Origin: a virus
DNA: 42,161 bases
Reading direction: 5' to 3' (one strand)
Virus record (IMG/VR): IMGVR_UViG_3300027963_000125
Location: 1-42,161 of that record
The notes under the pieces were generated by a model, which did no database searches, had not been told where the DNA came from, and saw only the letters and a program-made list of their open reading frames with translations. The translations under genes were made by a program, and so were the position numbers. Every line of letters starts with the position of its first letter. Positions within the stretch are counted from its first letter, which is position 1. Shown in pieces: positions 1 through 20,172 of the stretch.

Positions 1-534
1 GCTACCATCTATTCCACTTGTTCCTGAAGAACCATCTGTTCCGTTGCTACCACTAGTTCCTGAGCTACCATCTATTCCACTTGTTCCTGAAGAACCATCT
101 GTACCATTAGAACCTGAAGTTCCTGAAGTACCATCCGTACCATTAGAACCCGAAGTTCCGTCTGTACCTGAGGTTCCATCTGTACCATTTGAGCCTGAAG
201 TTCCTGAAGTACCATCTGTTCCGTTAGAACCTGATGTGCCGTCTGTTCCATTAGAACCAGAAGTACCATCTGTACCATTAGAACCCGAAGTTCCTGAAGT
301 ACCATCTGTACCATTAGAACCCGAAGTTCCTGAAGAACCATCCGCACCATTTGTACCTGAAGTTCCTGAAGAACCATCTGTACCATTACTACCACTTGTT
401 CCTGAGGTTCCGTCTGTACCGTTTGAACCAGATGTACCATCTGTCCCTGAAGTACCGTCGGTACCGTTAGAACCTGAAGTTCCATCTGTACCATTAGAAC
501 CAGATGTTCCACTTGTACCTGATGTACCACCTGT
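1..534 (-). repeat. Gly-X-Y collagen-like coding repeat
   Basis: Nine-base units encoding Gly-Thr-Ser, Gly-Thr-Asp, Gly-Ser-Asn and similar triplets run without interruption from about 534 to the window edge. The opposite strand reads as a long Pro-every-third-residue frame, which is a by-product of the GGN codons. Units vary at the third codon position, so the array is protein-driven rather than a simple DNA satellite. Confidence 0.85.
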
Positions 535-1374
535 TATAGTTACTGTAATATTTCCATTTAAATTATTTGTTACGGTTGCACCATTAAAAGTGATTCCAGA
601 TACTGGACTAACTGTCGTTGTACCATCACTAACTTGTAAAGCCGAACCAGAACCTGAAGTAATACCTGTAACTGATACCGCAGTACCATCACTATTATTT
701 AAAGTTAAAGTTGAGCTTCCACTATTATATGTTCCACCTGTTACAGTTCCCGTAAATCCTGTTATAGATAACGTACCTCCTGTATTATTGAATAAATTTA
801 AAGTTGTTGTTCCACTATTATATGTTCCTCCTGTAATTTGCCAGTCAGTACCATAAAATATTTTCCATCTTGCAGTTGCATGTGTAGCCCCACTAACACC
901 TTCAACTGATGAGTCAAACCAAGCATTAACAAAGTTTGTACCCGCAACGGTATCATCATAACACTGATAACCTCCACCAACAGGAACCAAAGAGCCTGCT
1001 GTTTCCGCAGCATTCCATAATGCAACGTAGTTGTCAATCACATATTGATAAACTAAATCTACTTCAATTACATAAACAGACATACCCAATCTTCTTCTAC
1101 CTGAAGAGATTTCGTCACTGTTAATTGTAACCGCATTTGGTGATAACAAAGGCACACCATATTGGTAGTTTATTGGAATGGTATTCCCTGAATACAGGAT
1201 AGTTCCTGAATCTCCAGGAGGAATTACGAAGTCTAAATCGCTTACCGAGAAGACTTCCATGTATCCACCAATTGAATACACGCTAAAATTTGTTCCCGTA
1301 TTATTGTTTAATGCGACACTATCTGGTCCATTTAATACAACGTCGGATGTGGGGTTTTGATATTTGAAACTCAT
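1..1374 (-). CDS. Collagen-like tail fibre protein, partial (C-terminus beyond window)
   Basis: The frame opens with ATG at 1374 and stays open for 458 codons to the left edge, so the C-terminus is missing. Residues 1 to about 190 form a non-repetitive N-terminal region (starts MSFKYQNPTSD), probably the part that attaches to the virion. About residues 190-275 hold imperfect beta-type repeats built on GGTYNSG and TLNLFNN/TLTLNN. From about residue 280 onward there is an unbroken Gly-X-Y series made of GTS, GTD, GSN and GSS triplets, as in collagen-like phage fibres but with almost no proline. By family knowledge such repeats form trimeric rods that carry a receptor-binding tip, which would lie outside the window. 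It is the last gene of the adhesion block, 24 nt after the Thr/Pro-rich gene, with no promoter-like motif of its own. The call as a fibre rests on repeat type and position. Confidence 0.85.
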   Translation of the reverse strand, partial: MSFKYQNPTSDVVLNGPDSVALNNNTGTNFSVYSIGGYMEVFSVSDLDFVIPPGDSGTILYSGNTIPINYQYGVPLLSPNAVTINSDEISSGRRRLGMSVYVIEVDLVYQYVIDNYVALWNAAETAGSLVPVGGGYQCYDDTVAGTNFVNAWFDSSVEGVSGATHATARWKIFYGTDWQITGGTYNSGTTTLNLFNNTGGTLSITGFTGTVTGGTYNSGSSTLTLNNSDGTAVSVTGITSGSGSALQVSDGTTTVSPVSGITFNGATVTNNLNGNITVTITGGTSGTSGTSGSNGTDGTSGSNGTDGTSGTDGTSGSNGTDGTSGTSGSNGTDGSSGTSGTNGADGSSGTSGSNGTDGTSGTSGSNGTDGTSGSNGTDGTSGSNGTDGTSGTSGSNGTDGTSGTDGTSGSNGTDGTSGTSGSNGTDGSSGTSGIDGSSGTSGSNGTDGSSGTSGIDGS

Positions 1375-1398
1375 TTCTTAGTTTATTTTTTTTATTCT

Positions 1399-2889
1399 TT
1401 ATATTAATGTATTACCTTTGAAGTAAATATCGTTTACTGAACCGTTTATTCTAAATGTTGGTGATGTATATGTCGAGTAAACTCTATATACACCTGGAGG
1501 TATTGTTGAACCTGTATTTGAAACAGTTAGATTGTAAATTGATGATTGCATATTAACTGCAGTTAACGCATTCGGGTTACTTGCATTGTTATATCCAATC
1601 TGGCTTATTTTTTGTCCATTTGTAGAACCTGTAGGTACAATCCATGTATACCACGCATCTCCGTTAGTTGTTCCCGCAGAAACTTGATAAGTTTGGAATA
1701 GATATGCCGTAATTGGATTTCCGTAAGCATCATTTCCACCTGATACACTTGAAGTTATACCTGTTCCAATTGCTGGTGCATTTATTGTCCATCCTGAATA
1801 CTGAATGTAATTATTCATTTGTGTGTTGTATGTTACAGGATTACTTGAAATTGCAAGTCCATTAGAGAATCCACGGAATACACCAGGTGAACCAACTGAA
1901 AGGAACCAATTACTAAATTGCGTATTTGCAGATGTCGGCTCAATGAATAAGTAAGCTGGTAAAGCTTGAGGTGGTGTTGCAGACGGTGTTTGTGTTGGTG
2001 TACTTGTAACTGTTGGAGTCTGAGTTGGTGTACTTGTAACTGTTGGAGTTTGTGTTGCAGTATTTGTTGGTGTTACACTCGCAGTATTAGTTGGTGTATT
2101 TGTAGGAGTAGCGGTATTAGTTGGTGTTACACTTGCAGTATTAGTCGGAGTTACAGTCGCAGTATTAGTTGGTGTGTTTGTAGGAGTTGATGTGTTAGTT
2201 GGTGTTACACTTGCAGTATTTGTTGGGGTATTTGTAGGAGTACTAGTATTAGTCGGAGTTACACTCGCGGTATTTGTTGGGGTATTTGTAGGAGTTTCTG
2301 TTGGAGTACTAGTAGGAGTCTCTGTATTAGTTGGTGTTACACTAGCAGTGTTAGTTGGTGTTACAGTCGTAGTGTTAGTTGGAGTTGGAGTTGATGTTGA
2401 TGTATTAGTTTGTGTCGGAGTCTGAGTATATGTTGGAGTTTGTGTTGGAGTTGGAGTTTGAGTTGCAGTCGAAGTCTGAGTATATGTTGGAGTTTGTGTT
2501 TGAGTAGGCGTTCCTCCTGGTGTTCCTGTGTTTGTAGGAGTAGGTGTTGGAGTCGAAGTTTGTGTTGGACTAAAACTTGGCGTTTGGGATGGTGTCGGAC
2601 TGTTACTTGGTGTTTGTGTTGGAGTTGTTGCTGGTGGTGTTACACTAGGTGTTGGCGTCACACAATCTAATGTTACAACAACACCATTTAACATTTCTGT
2701 TCTTGTCTGTGCCGAATAAATTGGAGTTGTTAATATTGAATCAACATAAACATTAAAAGGCCCAATAGCATTAGATGTTGAAGTTAATCTTACAATATAA
2801 GTTGAACACCCTGAAACAGTCAATTGCTGAGCAATTTCATTATTACACCCAGGAGCAGTATTGGTTACAATTATGGAATATGTTGACAT
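1399..2889 (-). CDS. Thr/Pro-repeat virion protein, probable tail appendage
   Basis: A 496-residue protein in three parts. Residues 1-76 form a small domain with three cysteines (C15, C28, C76) and the segment GPFNVYVDS. Residues about 77-305 are low-complexity Thr/Pro/Asn/Ser sequence built on units such as TPTNT, TNTASV and TPTQTP, likely an extended flexible or stalk-like spacer. Residues about 306-496 form a globular, Gly/Asn/Ser/Tyr-rich domain without cysteine that could be a receptor-binding head. No named family is recognised for either end. It lies between a Cys-rich small protein and the collagen-like fibre. A TATTTATTAA motif 13 nt before its ATG suggests that it starts a transcript that also carries the fibre gene. 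Role in adhesion is inferred from architecture and neighbours. Confidence 0.75.
1972..2661 (-). repeat. Thr/Pro-rich coding repeat
   Basis: This segment encodes about 230 residues made almost only of Thr, Pro, Asn, Ser, Val, Ala and Gln. A longer unit of roughly 14-20 residues (pattern [11 protein letters not shown] followed by STPTNTP) recurs several times with near-identical codons, so the DNA itself is repetitive and could expand or contract by recombination or slippage. Confidence 0.85.
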
Positions 2890-2968: not shown

Positions 2969-3340
2969 TTAAGTTTCAATTGAAAAAATGGAACATGCAC
3001 AAGATGAATCCTCAATGTTTAAGTTGAAAGTACAAGAAGCTTCTTGAATTGTAATATCAACCACACAAGATACAAGATTAACAGTAATTTCAAAAGAGCA
3101 TCCAAAAGTACAATCAAGAATTTTAAATATTTCACAACCATCCGCATCAACAAGTATCAACATTATTTGTGGTGCTGTGTTAAAAATAGTTGGAATCACA
3201 CTATTATATGAAACTGTCGGAGGAACAGGACCTGGGTCGATTGTTCCAAGCCATGACCTATTGTTTCCATAAACATCTGCTATGTAAACGCTAATTGGGT
3301 AACTCCCCCCTGTAATATAGTCAATTCTTACTTGTGTCAT
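2969..3340 (-). CDS. Small Cys-rich virion-associated protein of unknown function
   Basis: I chose the ATG at 3340 (protein begins MTQVRIDY, 123 residues) because it overlaps the upstream TGA stop as ATGA, a classic coupling junction; a GTG three codons further upstream is also possible. The C-terminal half holds seven cysteines in DGCE, LDCTFGC, VSCV, ASCT and SSCAC settings, suggesting disulfides or metal binding in an extracellular particle. The N-terminal part, with VRIDY...YPISVYIADV, resembles the N-terminal segment of the next gene (VRLTS...GPFNVYVDS), so the two may share a small beta domain. No family is recognised. Its place between the SprB-repeat and Thr/Pro-repeat genes suggests an adapter in the fibre assembly. 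Confidence 0.65.
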   Translation of the reverse strand: MTQVRIDYITGGSYPISVYIADVYGNNRSWLGTIDPGPVPPTVSYNSVIPTIFNTAPQIMLILVDADGCEIFKILDCTFGCSFEITVNLVSCVVDITIQEASCTFNLNIEDSSCACSIFSIET

Positions 3341-5484
3341 GTTAAGCACATAATGTCATAGTTAATAACTAGTTCAACAATAATTTCTTGACCATTCAAC
3401 GAATTATTACCCCTACTTGTTTCAATAGTTATTTGATTATTTAATTCATCTATTGTTACACGCCCAACACCTGTTATGCTAAGAAGTAAATTTCTAATAG
3501 TATTATACCATAAATTATCACTTGGTGCATTAATTAAAGATGTTGCAGTAAAGAATGAATTTGTAACAACAGTTCCTAAAGGTTGAACTGTTACTTTGGC
3601 TGTAAAAATAGCACTAACTAAATCACAATTTGTGTTTCCTGCGGTTAAATCACTGTAACCCTCATTCAACATTTGTAATAATCCCAATTTTGTTGGTGAT
3701 TGAACTTGGAAAACCTCAGACCCCATAACATAACTTTGATATGACGCATATGATTCGAAACAATCTATTGTCGCAGTTCTTTTCAAAGAACAACCATTAT
3801 CATCTACAATTGTCACACTATATGTTCCCGCAGTTAAACCTGTCACTTGTATTTGTTGTGGATTACTTGGTATATTATCTGACCAAGTAAATTTGAATGG
3901 TGGCGTACCTGACGAAATGAAAGTAGTTATTGAACCATTATTACCTGTACCACAAGAAGTTGAATAAACTGAAAAATCTAAATTAACACTTGGACTAACG
4001 TAAACTTGTTCTGTTTGTGTACATCCTGATGCATCTGTTACAGATATTGAGTGTTGTCCAGCAGCAACATTTGAGAAAGTAACTGCAGATAACGTAGTAT
4101 CATATACGTTAACCGCACCATTATCTAATGAATAATCAAAAGGAGATAAACCTCCAACAGATTTGGTAACTGTTATACTTCCATTATTTTGATTACAACT
4201 TGTATCAACTGTTGATGTAGTTATTGTAAAACTATCTGTTGTAAATAATGTTTTTTCTGTAATATAAGCACACCCTGTTGAATCTTCTGCCGCTATGGTG
4301 TAAGTACCTGAATATAAATTTGTAAACACGTAGGTTGTAAGAGAGTTACTCACTTTCAAGCTGTTTCCGTTAGGGTAGATTAGTGTATATACATAAGGTG
4401 CAACACCTCCATTAACCGTTATTGAAATTGAACCATTAGTACTTGAACAAGTTGACCCAACAGCACTTACATCTACTGAAGTAATTCCTGACGGTGCCAA
4501 TAAATTTGTTCCCACACTAAATGAACATAACCCAGCATCAGTCACTAAGAAATTATATTGTCCTGCAGGTATGTTTGATAACGTATATGTTTGAGAATAT
4601 GAAATTAATACATCACCTGTAGATGCCGAATAATAATATGGGGCAGTTCCTCCTGTTACTGTCAAACTTATAGAACCATCACTTGAAAAACATGTTGGCT
4701 GTGTTGAATTGAATACACCAAATCCTACGGGTGGTACATCAGTTACTGCAGTAGATTTTGTTAATGAACATCCAAGGCTATCTGTAACTTGAACTGAATA
4801 CGTTCCCTTTGTTAAACCTGTAGTAGTACTTCCTGTATCACCATTATTCCAAAGATATGTGTAAGGTAACAAACCTGTTTGTCCTGTCACAAATATCTTT
4901 CCAATTGGAGTACCTCCACAACTTGAATTTGGGACTGTATATAATCCAAAATCAAATGGCATTGACTCTTGAACAATAAAGTTAGACGTTTTAGCAGTAC
5001 AACCCCCTAAATCTAAAACTGTTATGTAATAGGTTCCTGCACTCAATCCGTTGAAATAGGCTTCAGCAACATTTGTGGTTGCCGAACTAATGAAAGTGTC
5101 AGCAGAATTAAATAAATAAAAATTTGTAGATGAATAATTTGATGTTGATGTTGCAGTTACAGCACCATTATCAAAACTACAAGTTGTATTTGCAACTCCT
5201 AAAATACTTCCACAAACACCACTTGATACAGGTATATTAATATAAAAGGAAGCGTTTGTTGGTAATGTGCTATCGTTTACCCTAACCGAGTAAGTTCCAA
5301 AGGGTAAATTTGTTTTTACATCTGGCTCTGTTGTAATTGTGTCTGTTGGAAACACTGGGTTTACCCATTGTACGGTATACGGTGGCGTACCTCCTGAAAG
5401 CAATATTGATATCGCTCCCGAGCTGTTGTGACTACAATCACCTGTTGTGTTAATATTATACCCGAATACTATAGGTGCCGCCAT
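3337..5484 (-). CDS. SprB-repeat tail adhesin-like protein
   Basis: A 715-residue protein with seven tandem repeats at about residues 8-85, 95-172, 183-248, 258-330, 340-412, 422-495 and 503-575. Most follow the pattern Cys-x(4-7)-Gly-(S/A)-I, then GG-(T/V)-(A/P)-P-(Y/F), then G-(T/Q)-Y and a closing D-x-x-G-C. That is the SprB repeat, known from the Flavobacterium gliding adhesin SprB and other Bacteroidota surface proteins. Residues 618-715 form a separate C-terminal module that closely matches the end of the preceding 994-residue protein. Its start overlaps the upstream stop as TAATG. No signal peptide is seen, as expected for a virion component. The likely role is a rod-like or host-binding appendage anchored to the wedge; the exact role is inferred. 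Confidence 0.85.
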   Translation of the reverse strand: MAAPIVFGYNINTTGDCSHNSSGAISILLSGGTPPYTVQWVNPVFPTDTITTEPDVKTNLPFGTYSVRVNDSTLPTNASFYINIPVSSGVCGSILGVANTTCSFDNGAVTATSTSNYSSTNFYLFNSADTFISSATTNVAEAYFNGLSAGTYYITVLDLGGCTAKTSNFIVQESMPFDFGLYTVPNSSCGGTPIGKIFVTGQTGLLPYTYLWNNGDTGSTTTGLTKGTYSVQVTDSLGCSLTKSTAVTDVPPVGFGVFNSTQPTCFSSDGSISLTVTGGTAPYYYSASTGDVLISYSQTYTLSNIPAGQYNFLVTDAGLCSFSVGTNLLAPSGITSVDVSAVGSTCSSTNGSISITVNGGVAPYVYTLIYPNGNSLKVSNSLTTYVFTNLYSGTYTIAAEDSTGCAYITEKTLFTTDSFTITTSTVDTSCNQNNGSITVTKSVGGLSPFDYSLDNGAVNVYDTTLSAVTFSNVAAGQHSISVTDASGCTQTEQVYVSPSVNLDFSVYSTSCGTGNNGSITTFISSGTPPFKFTWSDNIPSNPQQIQVTGLTAGTYSVTIVDDNGCSLKRTATIDCFESYASYQSYVMGSEVFQVQSPTKLGLLQMLNEGYSDLTAGNTNCDLVSAIFTAKVTVQPLGTVVTNSFFTATSLINAPSDNLWYNTIRNLLLSITGVGRVTIDELNNQITIETSRGNNSLNGQEIIVELVINYDIMCLT
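3760..5463 (-). repeat. Seven tandem SprB-type repeats (coding)
   Basis: The repeats are about 65-78 residues each, diverged in sequence but sharing a paired Cys framework and the GG-x-x-P-Y/F and G-x-Y motifs. The first repeat is atypical, ending in RVNDS without the closing Gly-Cys, and the second lacks the GG-x-x-PY segment. Confidence 0.8.
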
Positions 5485-8468
5485 TAGTTTTTACAATTTA
5501 TATTTAAGTTAATCCCCACATTTAAAGTAACACTTTCCTCTAAATTCTTCGGTTCACAAGTCATACTATTGATTGTCAAGTAATTACCTTGTAGGTAATA
5601 GTTGAAACCAAAATCATATAAGTTTGGTAGATATCTAATTAGAGCGTTTCTCCAACGAGTATTTGTCGGAACATCAGTTAATCCATATCCCGTATAAAAC
5701 TCTTCAAATATGATTATATCTCCGTTTATTCTTAAGTCAACATACCATTGAGTTGATAGTGAATTTTGAACACAATCATTCAAAGTAAGCCCGCTTGAAG
5801 ATAAATAAGAATTTAATTTATTCATTAGAATACTACTAAAGTTAGAAACCGTAACGTCTCCGTTCAACCAAGGGTAGATATAAAAATCAACATATTCAGT
5901 TGAACAAGTATATTGGAATATATTTGCAATTATATAACAAGGGTCTACAGGGACAGGAATGAATTGACAGCCTCTTTGTCTTCTATAAACAAACTTTTGC
6001 TTTTGTAGAATTGAATTTTCAAACTTAACTCCTCCTTGCCAAATTGTTGTGGCAGGAATCATTTGTTCAACAAGTTTTGTCCAATATGGACCGATACCTT
6101 CTACATAATCAATTAGTTTTTGATAAGTGTATTTGTTATTTGGTAAACCTACGGTCTCTTCAGACTCAATATACTTCCACCATAAAGATTGTAGTGTTGG
6201 ATATCCTCCTGTCTTACCATCAGTTATATATTGTCTGTTTCTAACATTAATCATGTTTTCCCAAAATGTTTGAGAGAACTCGAAGAATGTTTTTTTCTTT
6301 GGCTTAGGGTCAACATAAGTCCAGTCAACTCCACCTGGTACAGGATAACCAACAGTTAAACCTGATTCAGGAATCGGATAGTCATATTCTACGGATTGTG
6401 CCCATACATCATATAAAAGACCTTGACCAGGATTTAAGAATAAATCTACGTTTTTAACATTCAGGACTAATTTTTCATTATCAACGAAATAATACGCGTT
6501 ATAGTCACCATCAGTCGACACTCTTATTTTATTGTCTTCTTCTAACCATGATTTTTTATTATCCGTAATTTTTCTAAGTTTAAACCCTTCTGTCATATAA
6601 GGGAAATCTCTATATCTATTCAAATATGTTTGTCCATATGTGAATGGTTGTAATTGATTTTGTATGTCATAGTTTTGTCCCGTATAAACTAATCCAGTAA
6701 CTTGTACAGCATCTGGACTTCTGTGTTGTGGCGTTGTTTCATACCAACCAGAACCTATTTGGAAAAAGTATGTTTCAGTATCAACAGGGGCTTTAGGATA
6801 TCCTAATGCATCCATAGGATAATTCTCCAATGTTATGTTAACATCTTGATAAGTTGAGTTTGTTGTAAATGCTGTAAAGGTTTGTCCTTTTACTTTATAG
6901 GTTCCCCCAATTTGATATGCTGGTTGTACATCAACATATGTACCTCCTGAAATTTGTACCCATTGTGAGTAGAACTGGTCCAAATTAATTCTTTGGTCTG
7001 CAAGGTAAATGTGTTCATTATATTCAATCAAAGAATCAGGTGCACCTATCATTCTTAAAATAAATTCAACTGACCTTCTTGTACCTTTAGATTTAAAAAG
7101 GTAAGCTGCATTCAAAATTAAATTTCTGTAGAAGGCGTAGTTTAATTCTGTCGGAGTCAAAGCTCTAGCATAACCAGGATAAGTTGGTGTTGATGTGTTA
7201 CCAAAAACAGAACTTAAAAAATCTTCGTTCGTAATTGGTGAAAAGTTTGAAGTCCATCCCAAAGTTTGTGATAGATTAACTAAAAGTTGTGATGGAATAT
7301 CATTTGATGGATTATAGTTTACGGAGTTCATATACGCCAAAGCATCAATGAATTGTTTTACTTGGTCGAAACTTCTACCATATATTTGAAATATTTTTTC
7401 AACCTTTCTTCCTAACGTATCAAACTCTTTTAATGAATCACTTATCAAAAATCTTGATATTAGATTTGTCTTGAATGAATCAAGATTTACCGCAATTGCT
7501 TCCAATTGAGTTAAGTAATCATCAAACAAAAATGACCTAATATCTAAATTCCATCCGCCGTCTTTCGGCCAAGTTACTTGTTGATATGCAGTATAAAACT
7601 GACCATACTCATTTTGTTGTGGTACTTGGAATATTGCAGTGTATTCTGGTCTAACTAATCTATTAACAAGAAATTGTTCTACCTCATCAAAGCTTTCAGA
7701 GAAAACTTTGTCAACGACTAAATCATTTGGTCTTATTTCATATTGGTCAATTGTCGTACTTGCCGTTGTTCCAAACGGGTCTCCCGAAACTGTAAGAGAT
7801 ATCTTACCACTACTTAAGGTGGTTGATGGTGCAAAACCTACAACTTTGTAAATGTTATCATTTATACTAACACAGTAGTCTAAAAAAGTATTATATAAGT
7901 TTCTATATGGAGAAACTTGAATCTCTCTGGCATTTAAATTAGTTGCTGCACTTATTGAATAATCAATGTCGAATGGATTAAGTAATCTATCAACTGAAAC
8001 ATCAAAAAAGGTTTCATCTAAATCTTTACTATAAACAATGTTTTCCGCTGTGTATCCTGTTGAAAACTCTTGGTTTGTATACACCACATCCAAAGCCGCA
8101 GGAAAATAATTAATTATTTTTGTTACCGATACTTGAAATCTTTTTGACAACGAACCATACATTGAAAAGTTAAGAACTTGTGATACATCATAGTTAGGAT
8201 AAACCCTAAATTGTGTAGCCATGATTCTTCTACTCTCAGCTAAATCTTCAATACCCATCGCATCCAATGTCATTGGTTCAGAAAACGCTCCGACATTAAA
8301 TTTTCTATTAACCTTTTCGGTAACTGATGTTGTAAACTCAAAGTTACCTTGTGTCAATCCACCACCTTCAACAGTTTGTAAACCTACAATGTTGTCAAAG
8401 GCAGTTGCCGCTCCACTACCAGGTCTTGGAGGATAAAAATATTTGGTTGATTTTAACGTTGTCGGCAT
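5484..8468 (-). CDS. Baseplate wedge protein, tail protein I / gp7-like
   Basis: A 994-residue protein. Around residues 385-475 it has the signature of the tail protein I family (P2 gpI and relatives): a LSQTLGW segment followed about 45 residues later by a helix with RNLILNAAYLFKSKGT and VEFILRMIGAP. In P2-type tails gpI joins gpJ (gp6-like) in the wedge and links to fibres; in T4 gp7 plays the matching part. The long N-terminal region (1 to about 380) and the Tyr/Trp-rich region 480-850 are not recognised. Residues 897-994 form a C-terminal module shared with the next gene product. It starts at a TAATG junction with the upstream gene and ends in a TAATG junction with the SprB-repeat gene, tying wedge and adhesin synthesis together. 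The family call is good; the equivalence to gp7 is inference. Confidence 0.7.
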   Translation of the reverse strand: MPTTLKSTKYFYPPRPGSGAATAFDNIVGLQTVEGGGLTQGNFEFTTSVTEKVNRKFNVGAFSEPMTLDAMGIEDLAESRRIMATQFRVYPNYDVSQVLNFSMYGSLSKRFQVSVTKIINYFPAALDVVYTNQEFSTGYTAENIVYSKDLDETFFDVSVDRLLNPFDIDYSISAATNLNAREIQVSPYRNLYNTFLDYCVSINDNIYKVVGFAPSTTLSSGKISLTVSGDPFGTTASTTIDQYEIRPNDLVVDKVFSESFDEVEQFLVNRLVRPEYTAIFQVPQQNEYGQFYTAYQQVTWPKDGGWNLDIRSFLFDDYLTQLEAIAVNLDSFKTNLISRFLISDSLKEFDTLGRKVEKIFQIYGRSFDQVKQFIDALAYMNSVNYNPSNDIPSQLLVNLSQTLGWTSNFSPITNEDFLSSVFGNTSTPTYPGYARALTPTELNYAFYRNLILNAAYLFKSKGTRRSVEFILRMIGAPDSLIEYNEHIYLADQRINLDQFYSQWVQISGGTYVDVQPAYQIGGTYKVKGQTFTAFTTNSTYQDVNITLENYPMDALGYPKAPVDTETYFFQIGSGWYETTPQHRSPDAVQVTGLVYTGQNYDIQNQLQPFTYGQTYLNRYRDFPYMTEGFKLRKITDNKKSWLEEDNKIRVSTDGDYNAYYFVDNEKLVLNVKNVDLFLNPGQGLLYDVWAQSVEYDYPIPESGLTVGYPVPGGVDWTYVDPKPKKKTFFEFSQTFWENMINVRNRQYITDGKTGGYPTLQSLWWKYIESEETVGLPNNKYTYQKLIDYVEGIGPYWTKLVEQMIPATTIWQGGVKFENSILQKQKFVYRRQRGCQFIPVPVDPCYIIANIFQYTCSTEYVDFYIYPWLNGDVTVSNFSSILMNKLNSYLSSSGLTLNDCVQNSLSTQWYVDLRINGDIIIFEEFYTGYGLTDVPTNTRWRNALIRYLPNLYDFGFNYYLQGNYLTINSMTCEPKNLEESVTLNVGINLNINCKN

Positions 8469-17857: not shown

Positions 17858-19696
17858 TTAAGATAAAGTAACTGATTGGAAGTTCTTAACTGAAACTCTA
17901 ATGTCTTTAGAAGGATATCTTACTTGATATACTTGTGATGGTTGAGCGAAGATTGTATCATCAATTGGACCGATTAATTTGGTTTCAGGGTCTGAATATT
18001 CCATTGATGTTTCAGCCGATGAATATTGTCCTCCAACTTCATTGTAAACATCAATATTAGCTACGGTTAAAACACCATTTGTATTTTGAATAATACTACT
18101 TAATTCTGATAGATATACGTTCTGTCCAAGTTGTCTTGTTTGTGGATTTAAGTATGTTGATACTTTATCAATAACGTCTGAAATAACTTGTCCTGAATTT
18201 TGTGCTGAGTCCAACACAATAGAAACATCCATACTCAAATCAATAACCTCTGCAGTCAATATTGAAATATAGTCATTCATCATTCTATAGTTAGAAAGAT
18301 AATTAGCAATATTTTGTCTCAAAGTATTTGACACAATACTTGTTAACTTACCTGAAGAATCATAAGATAATATTTGAATTAATATCTTATTGTCGTTTTC
18401 AGTGATTGAAACTTTTGCAGGTGCCCCAAATTCTGATGGCATGTTTCTTATTATGGATTCATAGTCCTGAACAGTAACGGCTCTTTTTTGTGCTGAAAAG
18501 TTAAAAGAAACATAGTTTCTAATTTCTTCCAATGAAGGTACACCAGCACCTCCAATCGCAGCAGTAACGTTATTACATCTTAAAGAATTGACAACAGCTG
18601 AGTTTGTAATTTCTGATGGTCCATTAACAAAGAACGAAACGGTACCAACTTGATTGATAACATTTGTTCCCAAGTTAGTTGCTAAACCACCACCAACTCT
18701 ATACTGAATGAATAATGTAGAGTTTGGAGTCAATGCTGAACCTAATGAAAAGTTGTTTGAGTATCTTTGTAAATCAAGAGTTGCTCCAACTGTTGTAAAT
18801 TGGTCTAAGGCATCTTGTGCTGTGTTTGTTCCCCCGCCAAAAGTCATTTTCTTAAATCCTTCAGGTGTATATTCTGTAATAAATCTATTTTGAGTTTGGA
18901 TGTATCTTCCAACTTTAATACCTGGTTGGTCTGATACTTTTGTTGGGTCTTCAACAAAAACTCTATCTTCGGCTAAGGCATCTACTTCATACCACCTATT
19001 TGAAGCCCCTAAAAATTCTGCAGTTGTTGGTACATTTGTATAATCAGTTCCACTCTTTAAAAGTACACTTGTGATACCTAACACATTCTTTTCAGGTAAA
19101 AATAATTCGAAGAAAGGTTTAACATCATTTGGAGTAATAACTCTCTTGAATACTTTTGTAATACCATTAACAACAACTTCTCTCTTTGTAATTGTATAGT
19201 TAACTAAAACGTTGTTTGCATTGAAGTTTGGTATTTTAAGTCTATTTGGAAAACCTTGGGCGTTATATGGTGAAGTGAAATCAACGTCGTAAATGTTTTC
19301 AAATACTATACCCGCTCCAACAACTTGAGAACCTCTTAATAAAGTTCCAAGATATCTTTCATCTTCTTTATCTCCAAAAGCTGGTACTGTGATAGAAAAA
19401 TCAACCAAAGACACTGATGGCCTTTGTCCTGGCAACTTCAAACCATATGTTCTAGCAATGTTGTAGATTGATGACCTTTGTTGTGCATATTGAAGAACAG
19501 TTTCTTGAATACTTCTATCAATATGATAGTGTAGGTTATCGGCTACAGCGGCGTTTAAATCAATAAAAACAGAAAAAACAGAAGCGTCATTAAAATCTTG
19601 AATTAAATCAGGATAATATGTTTTGGCATAATTTAATAATTCAGTTCTTATTGCCTGATAATCTCTGGTAGTATATGATATTTTACGATTCGCCAT
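17858..19696 (-). CDS. Baseplate wedge protein gp6-like (gpJ family)
   Basis: A 612-residue protein matching the gp6/gpJ baseplate family. The N-terminus has the typical opening YTTRDYQAIRTELLNYA, then DFNDASVFSVFIDLNA and DNLHYHIDRSIQETVL, followed by RSSIYNIARTYG. The central part has an INQVGTVSFFVNGPSEI-type strand set and EEIRNYVSFNFSAQKRAV, VQDYESIIRNMPSEF. In T4 two gp6 copies clamp each wedge and form the inner iris of the baseplate. T4 gp6 is about 660 residues, so the length fits. It lies 5 nt after the gp25-like gene, the same order as in T4-like and P2-like phages (gp25/gpW then gp6/gpJ). Confidence 0.9.
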   Translation of the reverse strand: MANRKISYTTRDYQAIRTELLNYAKTYYPDLIQDFNDASVFSVFIDLNAAVADNLHYHIDRSIQETVLQYAQQRSSIYNIARTYGLKLPGQRPSVSLVDFSITVPAFGDKEDERYLGTLLRGSQVVGAGIVFENIYDVDFTSPYNAQGFPNRLKIPNFNANNVLVNYTITKREVVVNGITKVFKRVITPNDVKPFFELFLPEKNVLGITSVLLKSGTDYTNVPTTAEFLGASNRWYEVDALAEDRVFVEDPTKVSDQPGIKVGRYIQTQNRFITEYTPEGFKKMTFGGGTNTAQDALDQFTTVGATLDLQRYSNNFSLGSALTPNSTLFIQYRVGGGLATNLGTNVINQVGTVSFFVNGPSEITNSAVVNSLRCNNVTAAIGGAGVPSLEEIRNYVSFNFSAQKRAVTVQDYESIIRNMPSEFGAPAKVSITENDNKILIQILSYDSSGKLTSIVSNTLRQNIANYLSNYRMMNDYISILTAEVIDLSMDVSIVLDSAQNSGQVISDVIDKVSTYLNPQTRQLGQNVYLSELSSIIQNTNGVLTVANIDVYNEVGGQYSSAETSMEYSDPETKLIGPIDDTIFAQPSQVYQVRYPSKDIRVSVKNFQSVTLS

Positions 19697-19701
19697 TTAT
19701 A

Positions 19702-20172
19702 TTAAATATTAATAATCACAAAATCACTTTGTGCAAATGCAGAATTAGTTACAGCATAATCTATTCTAACTTTTGCTGTATATTCTGAAGTTCCCTTTCC
19801 TGGTACACGATAAATTGAAGATTCTCCACTTCCAATTATGTTTTGGCCTGTGGCAATATCAATTTCTTCTTGTGGGTCGGCTGGTTCTATTGTTAAGTTA
19901 TTGATTAAAAGATTTGGCATAAATTGTTGAACCGCGTCTCTTATATCCGATTCTATCGCACTGAAAGTTAATCCATCAAAAGGTTCAAATAAAAACTCAT
20001 ACAATCTTGTTCCAAAGGCAGGTAAAAAATATCTCGAACCCTTTCTTGTTAATAATAAGTGTATTAGGTCTGCCTTTATTTCTTGTTTTTCTAGTTCAGT
20101 GAGTTGTAAGTAATCACCTTTTCTAGAATCCCTAAATGGAAAGTTTAATCCGTATGTCAGTCCTTGTGCCAT
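19702..20172 (-). CDS. Baseplate wedge protein gp25-like
   Basis: A 156-residue protein of the gp25/gpW family. It shows the usual core: EIKADLIHLLLTRKGSR, then PAFGTRLYEFLFEP, then an IESDIRDAVQQFMPNL helix leading into beta strands ending in DFVIINI. In T4 gp25 joins the sheath to the wedge and triggers sheath contraction; the family has a lysozyme-like name by history but acts structurally. The segment 105-128 (IDIATGQNIIGSGESS) appears to be an insertion between the final strands. It directly precedes the gp6-like gene. The ATG at 20172 is 6 nt from a TATTTAT box, so a transcript starting there would be nearly leaderless. Confidence 0.9.
   Translation of the reverse strand: MAQGLTYGLNFPFRDSRKGDYLQLTELEKQEIKADLIHLLLTRKGSRYFLPAFGTRLYEFLFEPFDGLTFSAIESDIRDAVQQFMPNLLINNLTIEPADPQEEIDIATGQNIIGSGESSIYRVPGKGTSEYTAKVRIDYAVTNSAFAQSDFVIINI

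Follow-up and report, generated by a model that had tools for sequence, protein, structure and literature searches.

We identified a single gene encoding SprB-type repeats in the window, by which we mean the whole 42,161-nucleotide stretch of viral DNA analyzed (IMG/VR record IMGVR_UViG_3300027963_000125). The ORF, at 3337-5484 on the minus strand, starts with ATG and encodes 715 residues; its coordinates are those of the initial annotation. The gene start is overlapped by one base (TA followed by ATG) by the stop of a gene for a 994-residue protein (5484..8468, minus strand). Hhalign aligned about 100 residues of this neighbor, at a probability of 90, with a 1336-residue protein of Microcystis phage Mel-JY01 that is encoded three genes after gp6, and gave weaker matches to large post-gp6 proteins of an uncultured huge phage and of Flavobacterium phage immuto. 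Databases also contain A0A6J5L8T1 (44%), a diverged relative of the neighbor. The AlphaFold2 model of the neighbor is poor, with a mean pLDDT of 40 and a best PDB row of Z 5.8. From the partial, single-domain hhalign match, it is plausible that the 994-residue protein is a baseplate wedge protein. The earlier description of the repeat gene as coupled to a baseplate wedge gene is upheld for the coupling, through the one-base overlap, and holds with moderate confidence for the wedge identity, the match being partial.

PHROG matches place a gp6-like wedge gene at 17858-19696 and a gp25-like wedge gene at 19702-20172 (E 9e-23 and 1e-16 for the pair), both on the minus strand and in the same block and orientation as the SprB gene. 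Further upstream are genes for a DnaB-type helicase, a UvsX-like recombinase, a gp32-like protein, a ribonucleotide reductase, and a gp53-like protein. This gene set, with the wedge genes, identifies the window as part of a T4-like phage.

Downstream of the SprB gene, the order is small protein, Pro/Thr-repeat protein, collagen-like protein, all on the minus strand. The small protein (126 residues, 2969..3349) overlaps the end of the SprB gene and is the next gene in most relatives. The ORF translation and the relatives indicate a fibre-like Pro/Thr-repeat protein at 1399..2889, the C-terminal part of which is non-repetitive. The collagen-like (GTSGTSGSNGTDG) protein, also fibre-like, is read in minus-strand frame 0 and runs off the window edge (1..1382). 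A 270-residue ORF in this region is spurious, being the antisense of the collagen-like GTSGTSGSNGTDG gene (window 1-1382).

Detection and predicted fold of the repeats

The Pfam SprB family (PF13573) matches the 715-residue protein with 114.3 bits (E = 1.7e-33), against a curated cut-off of 28 bits, and six stretches pass singly. Across the whole 42-kb window record, the SprB signal is confined to this ORF, and it occurs in none of the 14 control genomes. Pfam misses repeat 2, which is divergent. A full-repeat HMM built from seven distinct full repeats, taken solely from Bacteroidota genomes, recovered the second half of repeat 2 with an i-E of 2.4e-5 and the other six repeats with values from 1e-5 to 6e-17. 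This HMM scored the whole protein at 208 bits. The best of 500 shuffled sequences reached 6.9 bits (E 0.17), and the runner-up protein in the window and three related phages reached 2.4 bits. Given this distance from the noise of shuffled and other proteins, the seven repeats are genuine and not a chance resemblance. The protein is a confirmed member of the SprB repeat family, and the earlier count of seven repeats is correct, six being found by Pfam and all seven by the Bacteroidota-derived HMM.

The repeats run from the N-terminus along the minus strand. Repeat 1 (residues ~12-95, 5200..5451) is supported by the SprB profile, the Bacteroidota-derived HMM, and the repeat tree described below, and repeat 2 (residues ~97-171, 4972..5196) has two conserved cysteines in addition to its HMM match. 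Repeats 3 (residues ~184-247, 4744..4935) and 7 (residues ~505-573, 3766..3972) have i-E values of 6e-17 and 8e-16 with the same HMM. Repeat 4 (residues ~259-328, 4501..4710) scored 43.9 bits in the SprB scan; like repeat 4, repeats 5 (residues ~340-412, 4249..4467) and 6 (residues ~424-496, 3997..4215) were found by both the SprB scan and the HMM. The remainder of the protein (residues ~590-715, 3340..3717) has no Pfam match and is an alpha/beta domain according to the AlphaFold2 secondary structure.

The AlphaFold2 model, built with 41 sequences, has a mean pLDDT of 83 and consists of many consecutive beta strands arranged in repeating units, followed by the alpha/beta domain, with a low-confidence hinge at residues 576-589. 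Its pTM is only 0.34, so that the arrangement of the domains relative to each other and the overall shape of the chain are undefined. The predicted domains are beta sandwiches in a row, of the generic Ig/fibronectin-like fold class. The top PDB fold rows are the GhpA grappling-hook protein of Aureispira (PDB 9flp, 9flv; Z 12.5 and 12.0). Since fibronectin-type chains are only about 1-2 Z below these rows and the GhpA rmsd is large, the match indicates a fold class and not a specific kinship. GhpA, too, is built of beta-sandwich domains in tandem and belongs to an appendage on a bacterial surface; it differs in belonging to a cell, and the likeness is at the fold level only, with 14-15% identity.

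A single-sequence PDB search with the 715-residue protein returned nothing meaningful. The huge-phage and Cecembia repeats gave mostly weak Ig-like matches to solved structures; one match in that search, at E 6e-5, was to the "Immunoglobulin-like domain protein" chain. The C-terminal domains of the 994- and 715-residue proteins have a similar helix/strand order in the predicted models. Homology between these two domains obtained just E 0.006 and a probability of 6 in hhalign and remains a lead.

The SprB label could be incidental if ordinary phage Ig-like domains had arrived at the SprB motif by convergence. In favor of this, the fold class is a generic one, and the family profile, searched against PDB sequences, weakly matched just two phage Ig-like proteins (the gp24 neck whiskers and a decoration protein) at E ~0.02. 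Several results make such convergence very unlikely. The 208 bits come from a profile of cell-genome repeats alone. Both cysteine positions of the repeat agree with those of cell repeats, being present in 162 of 176 cell and huge-phage SprB repeats, so that a cysteine pair per repeat is common to the phage array and the cell SprB repeats. The PHROGs gave no significant match, the best being phrog_25660 with an E of 0.061, and a tblastn search of 50,697 phage records with SprB repeats matched only two huge-phage records. No SprB Pfam match was found in six tail proteins of Flavobacterium phage immuto.

Conservation of the array among relatives

A scan with the 994-residue protein yielded 232 relatives, of which 80 were kept, and a scan with the SprB alignment yielded 519 in IMG/VR, of which 80 were likewise kept. 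Sixty-nine of the first 80 loci continue for over 2.3 kb beyond the wedge-like gene and could be tested for an orthologue. All 69 have a near-full SprB orthologue within the tail gene block, mostly of 709-719 residues. Aligned with the window protein, 46 non-identical orthologues cover 708-711 residues and have 57-65% identity.

All 17 cysteines of the protein, two per repeat plus three, are 98-100% conserved among the orthologues. In the internal alignment the cysteine pair is in register in six repeats; in repeat 1 the second cysteine is displaced to residue 91. A tree of the repeats from 13 phages had each of R1 to R7 as a separate clade, with support of 0.98-1.0. The window repeats resemble cell repeats (39-53% identity) about as closely as they resemble repeats at other positions in the same phages (37-45%). 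The position-specific clades and the conserved cysteines indicate that the array is fixed, and the clades further indicate that the seven-repeat order is older than the sampled clade. In the structural library, A0A6J5LD72, a 714-residue "SprB repeat" protein of an uncultured Caudovirales phage known solely through its automatic database label, matched over its full length at 34% identity. It has the same length and is very likely a diverged orthologue of the 715-residue protein, and the match suggests that the fixed order goes deeper than the sampled clade. The cell genome G061 contains six consecutive SprB repeats (C1:3446317-3448953) with identical bit scores. Together with their 228-base spacing, the identical scores suggest a recent expansion, unlike the fixed phage array.

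Six of 68 full-length SprB proteins exceed 730 residues. Their extensions start past the C-terminal domain and contain Pro/Thr repeats. Two of the tips share about 30% identity and have "YNPTNNKIYV"-type repeats, propeller-like as judged by eye; a third tip matches neither. Pro/Thr linkers occur at the C-termini encoded by the SprB genes of loci L023, L038, L039, L042, and L070, with further tip modules in four of them. At L037 the next ORF, a separate one, contains a tip-like sequence, perhaps as the result of a frameshift.

The 715-residue protein could itself be the receptor-binding protein, its SprB domains binding a surface glycan or protein directly. This would suit the 62 of 68 relatives of 730 residues or shorter, which have no C-terminal tip. 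It would also suit the median identity of 62% among orthologues, which several other proteins encoded in the block exceed (90, 79, 72, 68, and 67%), although a 1595-residue protein of the same block is lower at 56%. The distribution of the variation speaks against it: conservation extends over the C-terminal domain as well as all seven repeats, the length hardly varies, and the 25-residue identity profile, which ranges from 0.43 to 0.78, contains no hypervariable patch. The variable parts are the Pro/Thr tips and the downstream genes. We consider direct receptor binding by the repeats unlikely.

A proposed baseplate stalk

We propose that the 715-residue protein is a tail structural component, most likely a stalk (short fibre) attached to the baseplate, with its C-terminus outward and presenting adhesion modules; we assign this reading a probability of roughly 0.7. 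The stalk would consist of the seven SprB-type Ig-like beta sandwiches, set in a fixed row, and then the alpha/beta domain. Its base would be held by the baseplate complex, as suggested by the gene position beside the 994-residue gene. The outward direction of the C-terminal end is suggested by the extensions, which were seen as sequence; most relatives are uninformative on this point, since only 6 of 68 exceed 730 residues. In some lineages the stalk C-terminus would continue into a Pro/Thr linker with an exchangeable tip, and in the window phage the Pro/Thr-repeat fibre would be a separate gene product, encoded just downstream of the stalk gene. In this role the stalk would keep adhesion modules at a distance from the baseplate, and one disulfide per domain, probably formed outside the reducing cytoplasm, may harden it. 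At some stage the repeats were probably drawn from the Bacteroidota SprB pool, to be passed on as a fixed set from then on.

The initial annotation had called the gene product a phage virion protein. Its place in the tail/baseplate gene block agrees with this, and the virion location is suggested by gene position and conservation. The proposal that the repeat had been borrowed as a rigid stalk fits the fixed architecture, the AlphaFold2 row of beta sandwiches, and the C-terminal tip modules of some relatives; the mechanical role is one that we infer. The protein is real, conserved, and of a recognizable kind, a tail protein of tandem Ig-like domains from the repertoire of the host phylum. It appears that an abundant group of T4-like phages, with Bacteroidota as probable hosts, made a fixed baseplate stalk of seven cysteine-paired domains out of the repeat found in the surface adhesins of gliding Bacteroidota.

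SprB adhesins of the Bacteroidota surface (PF13573) have the same repeat sequence, the same two cysteine positions per repeat, and a tandem layout. Unlike them, the phage protein is encoded in a tail gene block and has a fixed number of seven repeats and an additional alpha/beta C-terminal domain; it also has no type A or type B sorting domain of the type IX secretion system (T9SS), and no signal peptide is visible on reading the protein by eye, repeat 1 starting near residue 12. Neither the window record nor two larger relatives, 183 and 326 kb long (records G000, G003, and G004), gave any match to a T9SS sorting domain, whereas two cell genomes had from 13 to 128 matches each for the two T9SS sorting-domain families.

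An uncultured phage of 642 kb (LR756502.1) encodes a 1670-residue SprB protein (L168:12274-17286) with 13 SprB stretches, a PKD domain, a signal-peptide-like start, and a T9SS type B sorting domain; its record has two additional type B matches and one type A match. It shares phage-encoded SprB repeats with the window protein and differs in its length and export-type signals, and judged by its sequence it is a phage-encoded, export-type adhesin of the host kind. With this precedent, the 715-residue protein might be displayed on or secreted by the host and not be carried on the virion. The window protein begins directly in repeat 1, has no sorting domain and, by eye, no signal peptide, and its gene lies in the tail gene block in every testable relative. 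We regard display or secretion by the host as scarcely credible.

The stalk might also mimic or dock onto the host gliding-adhesin system, with its SprB filaments and T9SS-driven track, as the initial annotation had suggested. The repeat family is common to the adhesins and the phage protein, and a 2026 paper on Cellulophaga phages raises SprB and RemA as possible phage receptors (PMC13288928). A wide variety of Bacteroidota proteins contain SprB repeats, with 145 matches in a single genome, so that the kinship with gliding is not specific, and T9SS sorting domains are missing from the window record and its two larger relatives. No support was found for this suggestion, and we hold mimicry of or docking onto the gliding system to be a very remote prospect. 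Equally improbable in our estimation is a more specific form, in which the stalk would bind host SprB-type adhesins homotypically and virions would ride them along the T9SS-driven track over the cell surface. A directed search of the open-access literature for gliding or sprB mutants and phage resistance found nothing.

A parallel to the proposed stalk in the literature is the BACON array. According to a study of crAss-like and related gut phages, tandem BACON repeats are associated with tail proteins and arose via domain duplication or the transfer of separate domains (PMC6949934). BACON is likewise a Bacteroidota-associated domain family occurring in tandem in phage tail-associated proteins. 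It is a different family, absent from the Pfam matches to the 715-residue protein up to E = 1, and the SprB arrays differ in having a number and order fixed over the sampled clade. In the part of the open-access literature that our search covered, no description of a phage SprB-repeat virion protein was found. SprB would be the second Bacteroidota-associated repeat family, after BACON, in phage tail-associated proteins. With over 500 relatives in IMG/VR, the clade could be recognized by a fixed, cysteine-rich stalk at a constant place, which would serve as a marker gene for this uncultured group. Structural studies of SprB domains would gain a defined object in the stalk, which would also allow a concrete test of whether gliding-adhesin parts are exploited by phages or merely borrowed.

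Host and sequences upstream of genes

The initial annotation had taken the repeats to point to the host phylum. Among 61 Bacteroidota genomes sampled, 12 had SprB; the 14 controls had none. A Shine-Dalgarno core was found in just 2 of 486 upstream regions of the relatives (loci L008-L087), and a near-absence of such cores is expected for Bacteroidota. Both results are consistent with a host in the Bacteroidota. The named phages nearest by gp6 infect Flavobacterium and Microcystis, with near-equal identity, and given this split a Bacteroidota host is likely but not proven for the window phage. The phage collection that was searched contained no close relative. A scan of genome contigs found two Bacteroidota genomes with SprB-repeat proteins, and in that search there was no orthologue of the entire phage protein.

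The sequence TTATTAA occurs about 19-21 bases before the minus-strand starts at 2889, 3349, 9376, 17765, 19696, 28286, and 41246 in the window. In the relatives, it lies no more than 45 bases from a start 31 times, 30 of them at -21 to -17. This sequence is possibly a late promoter or an initiation signal.
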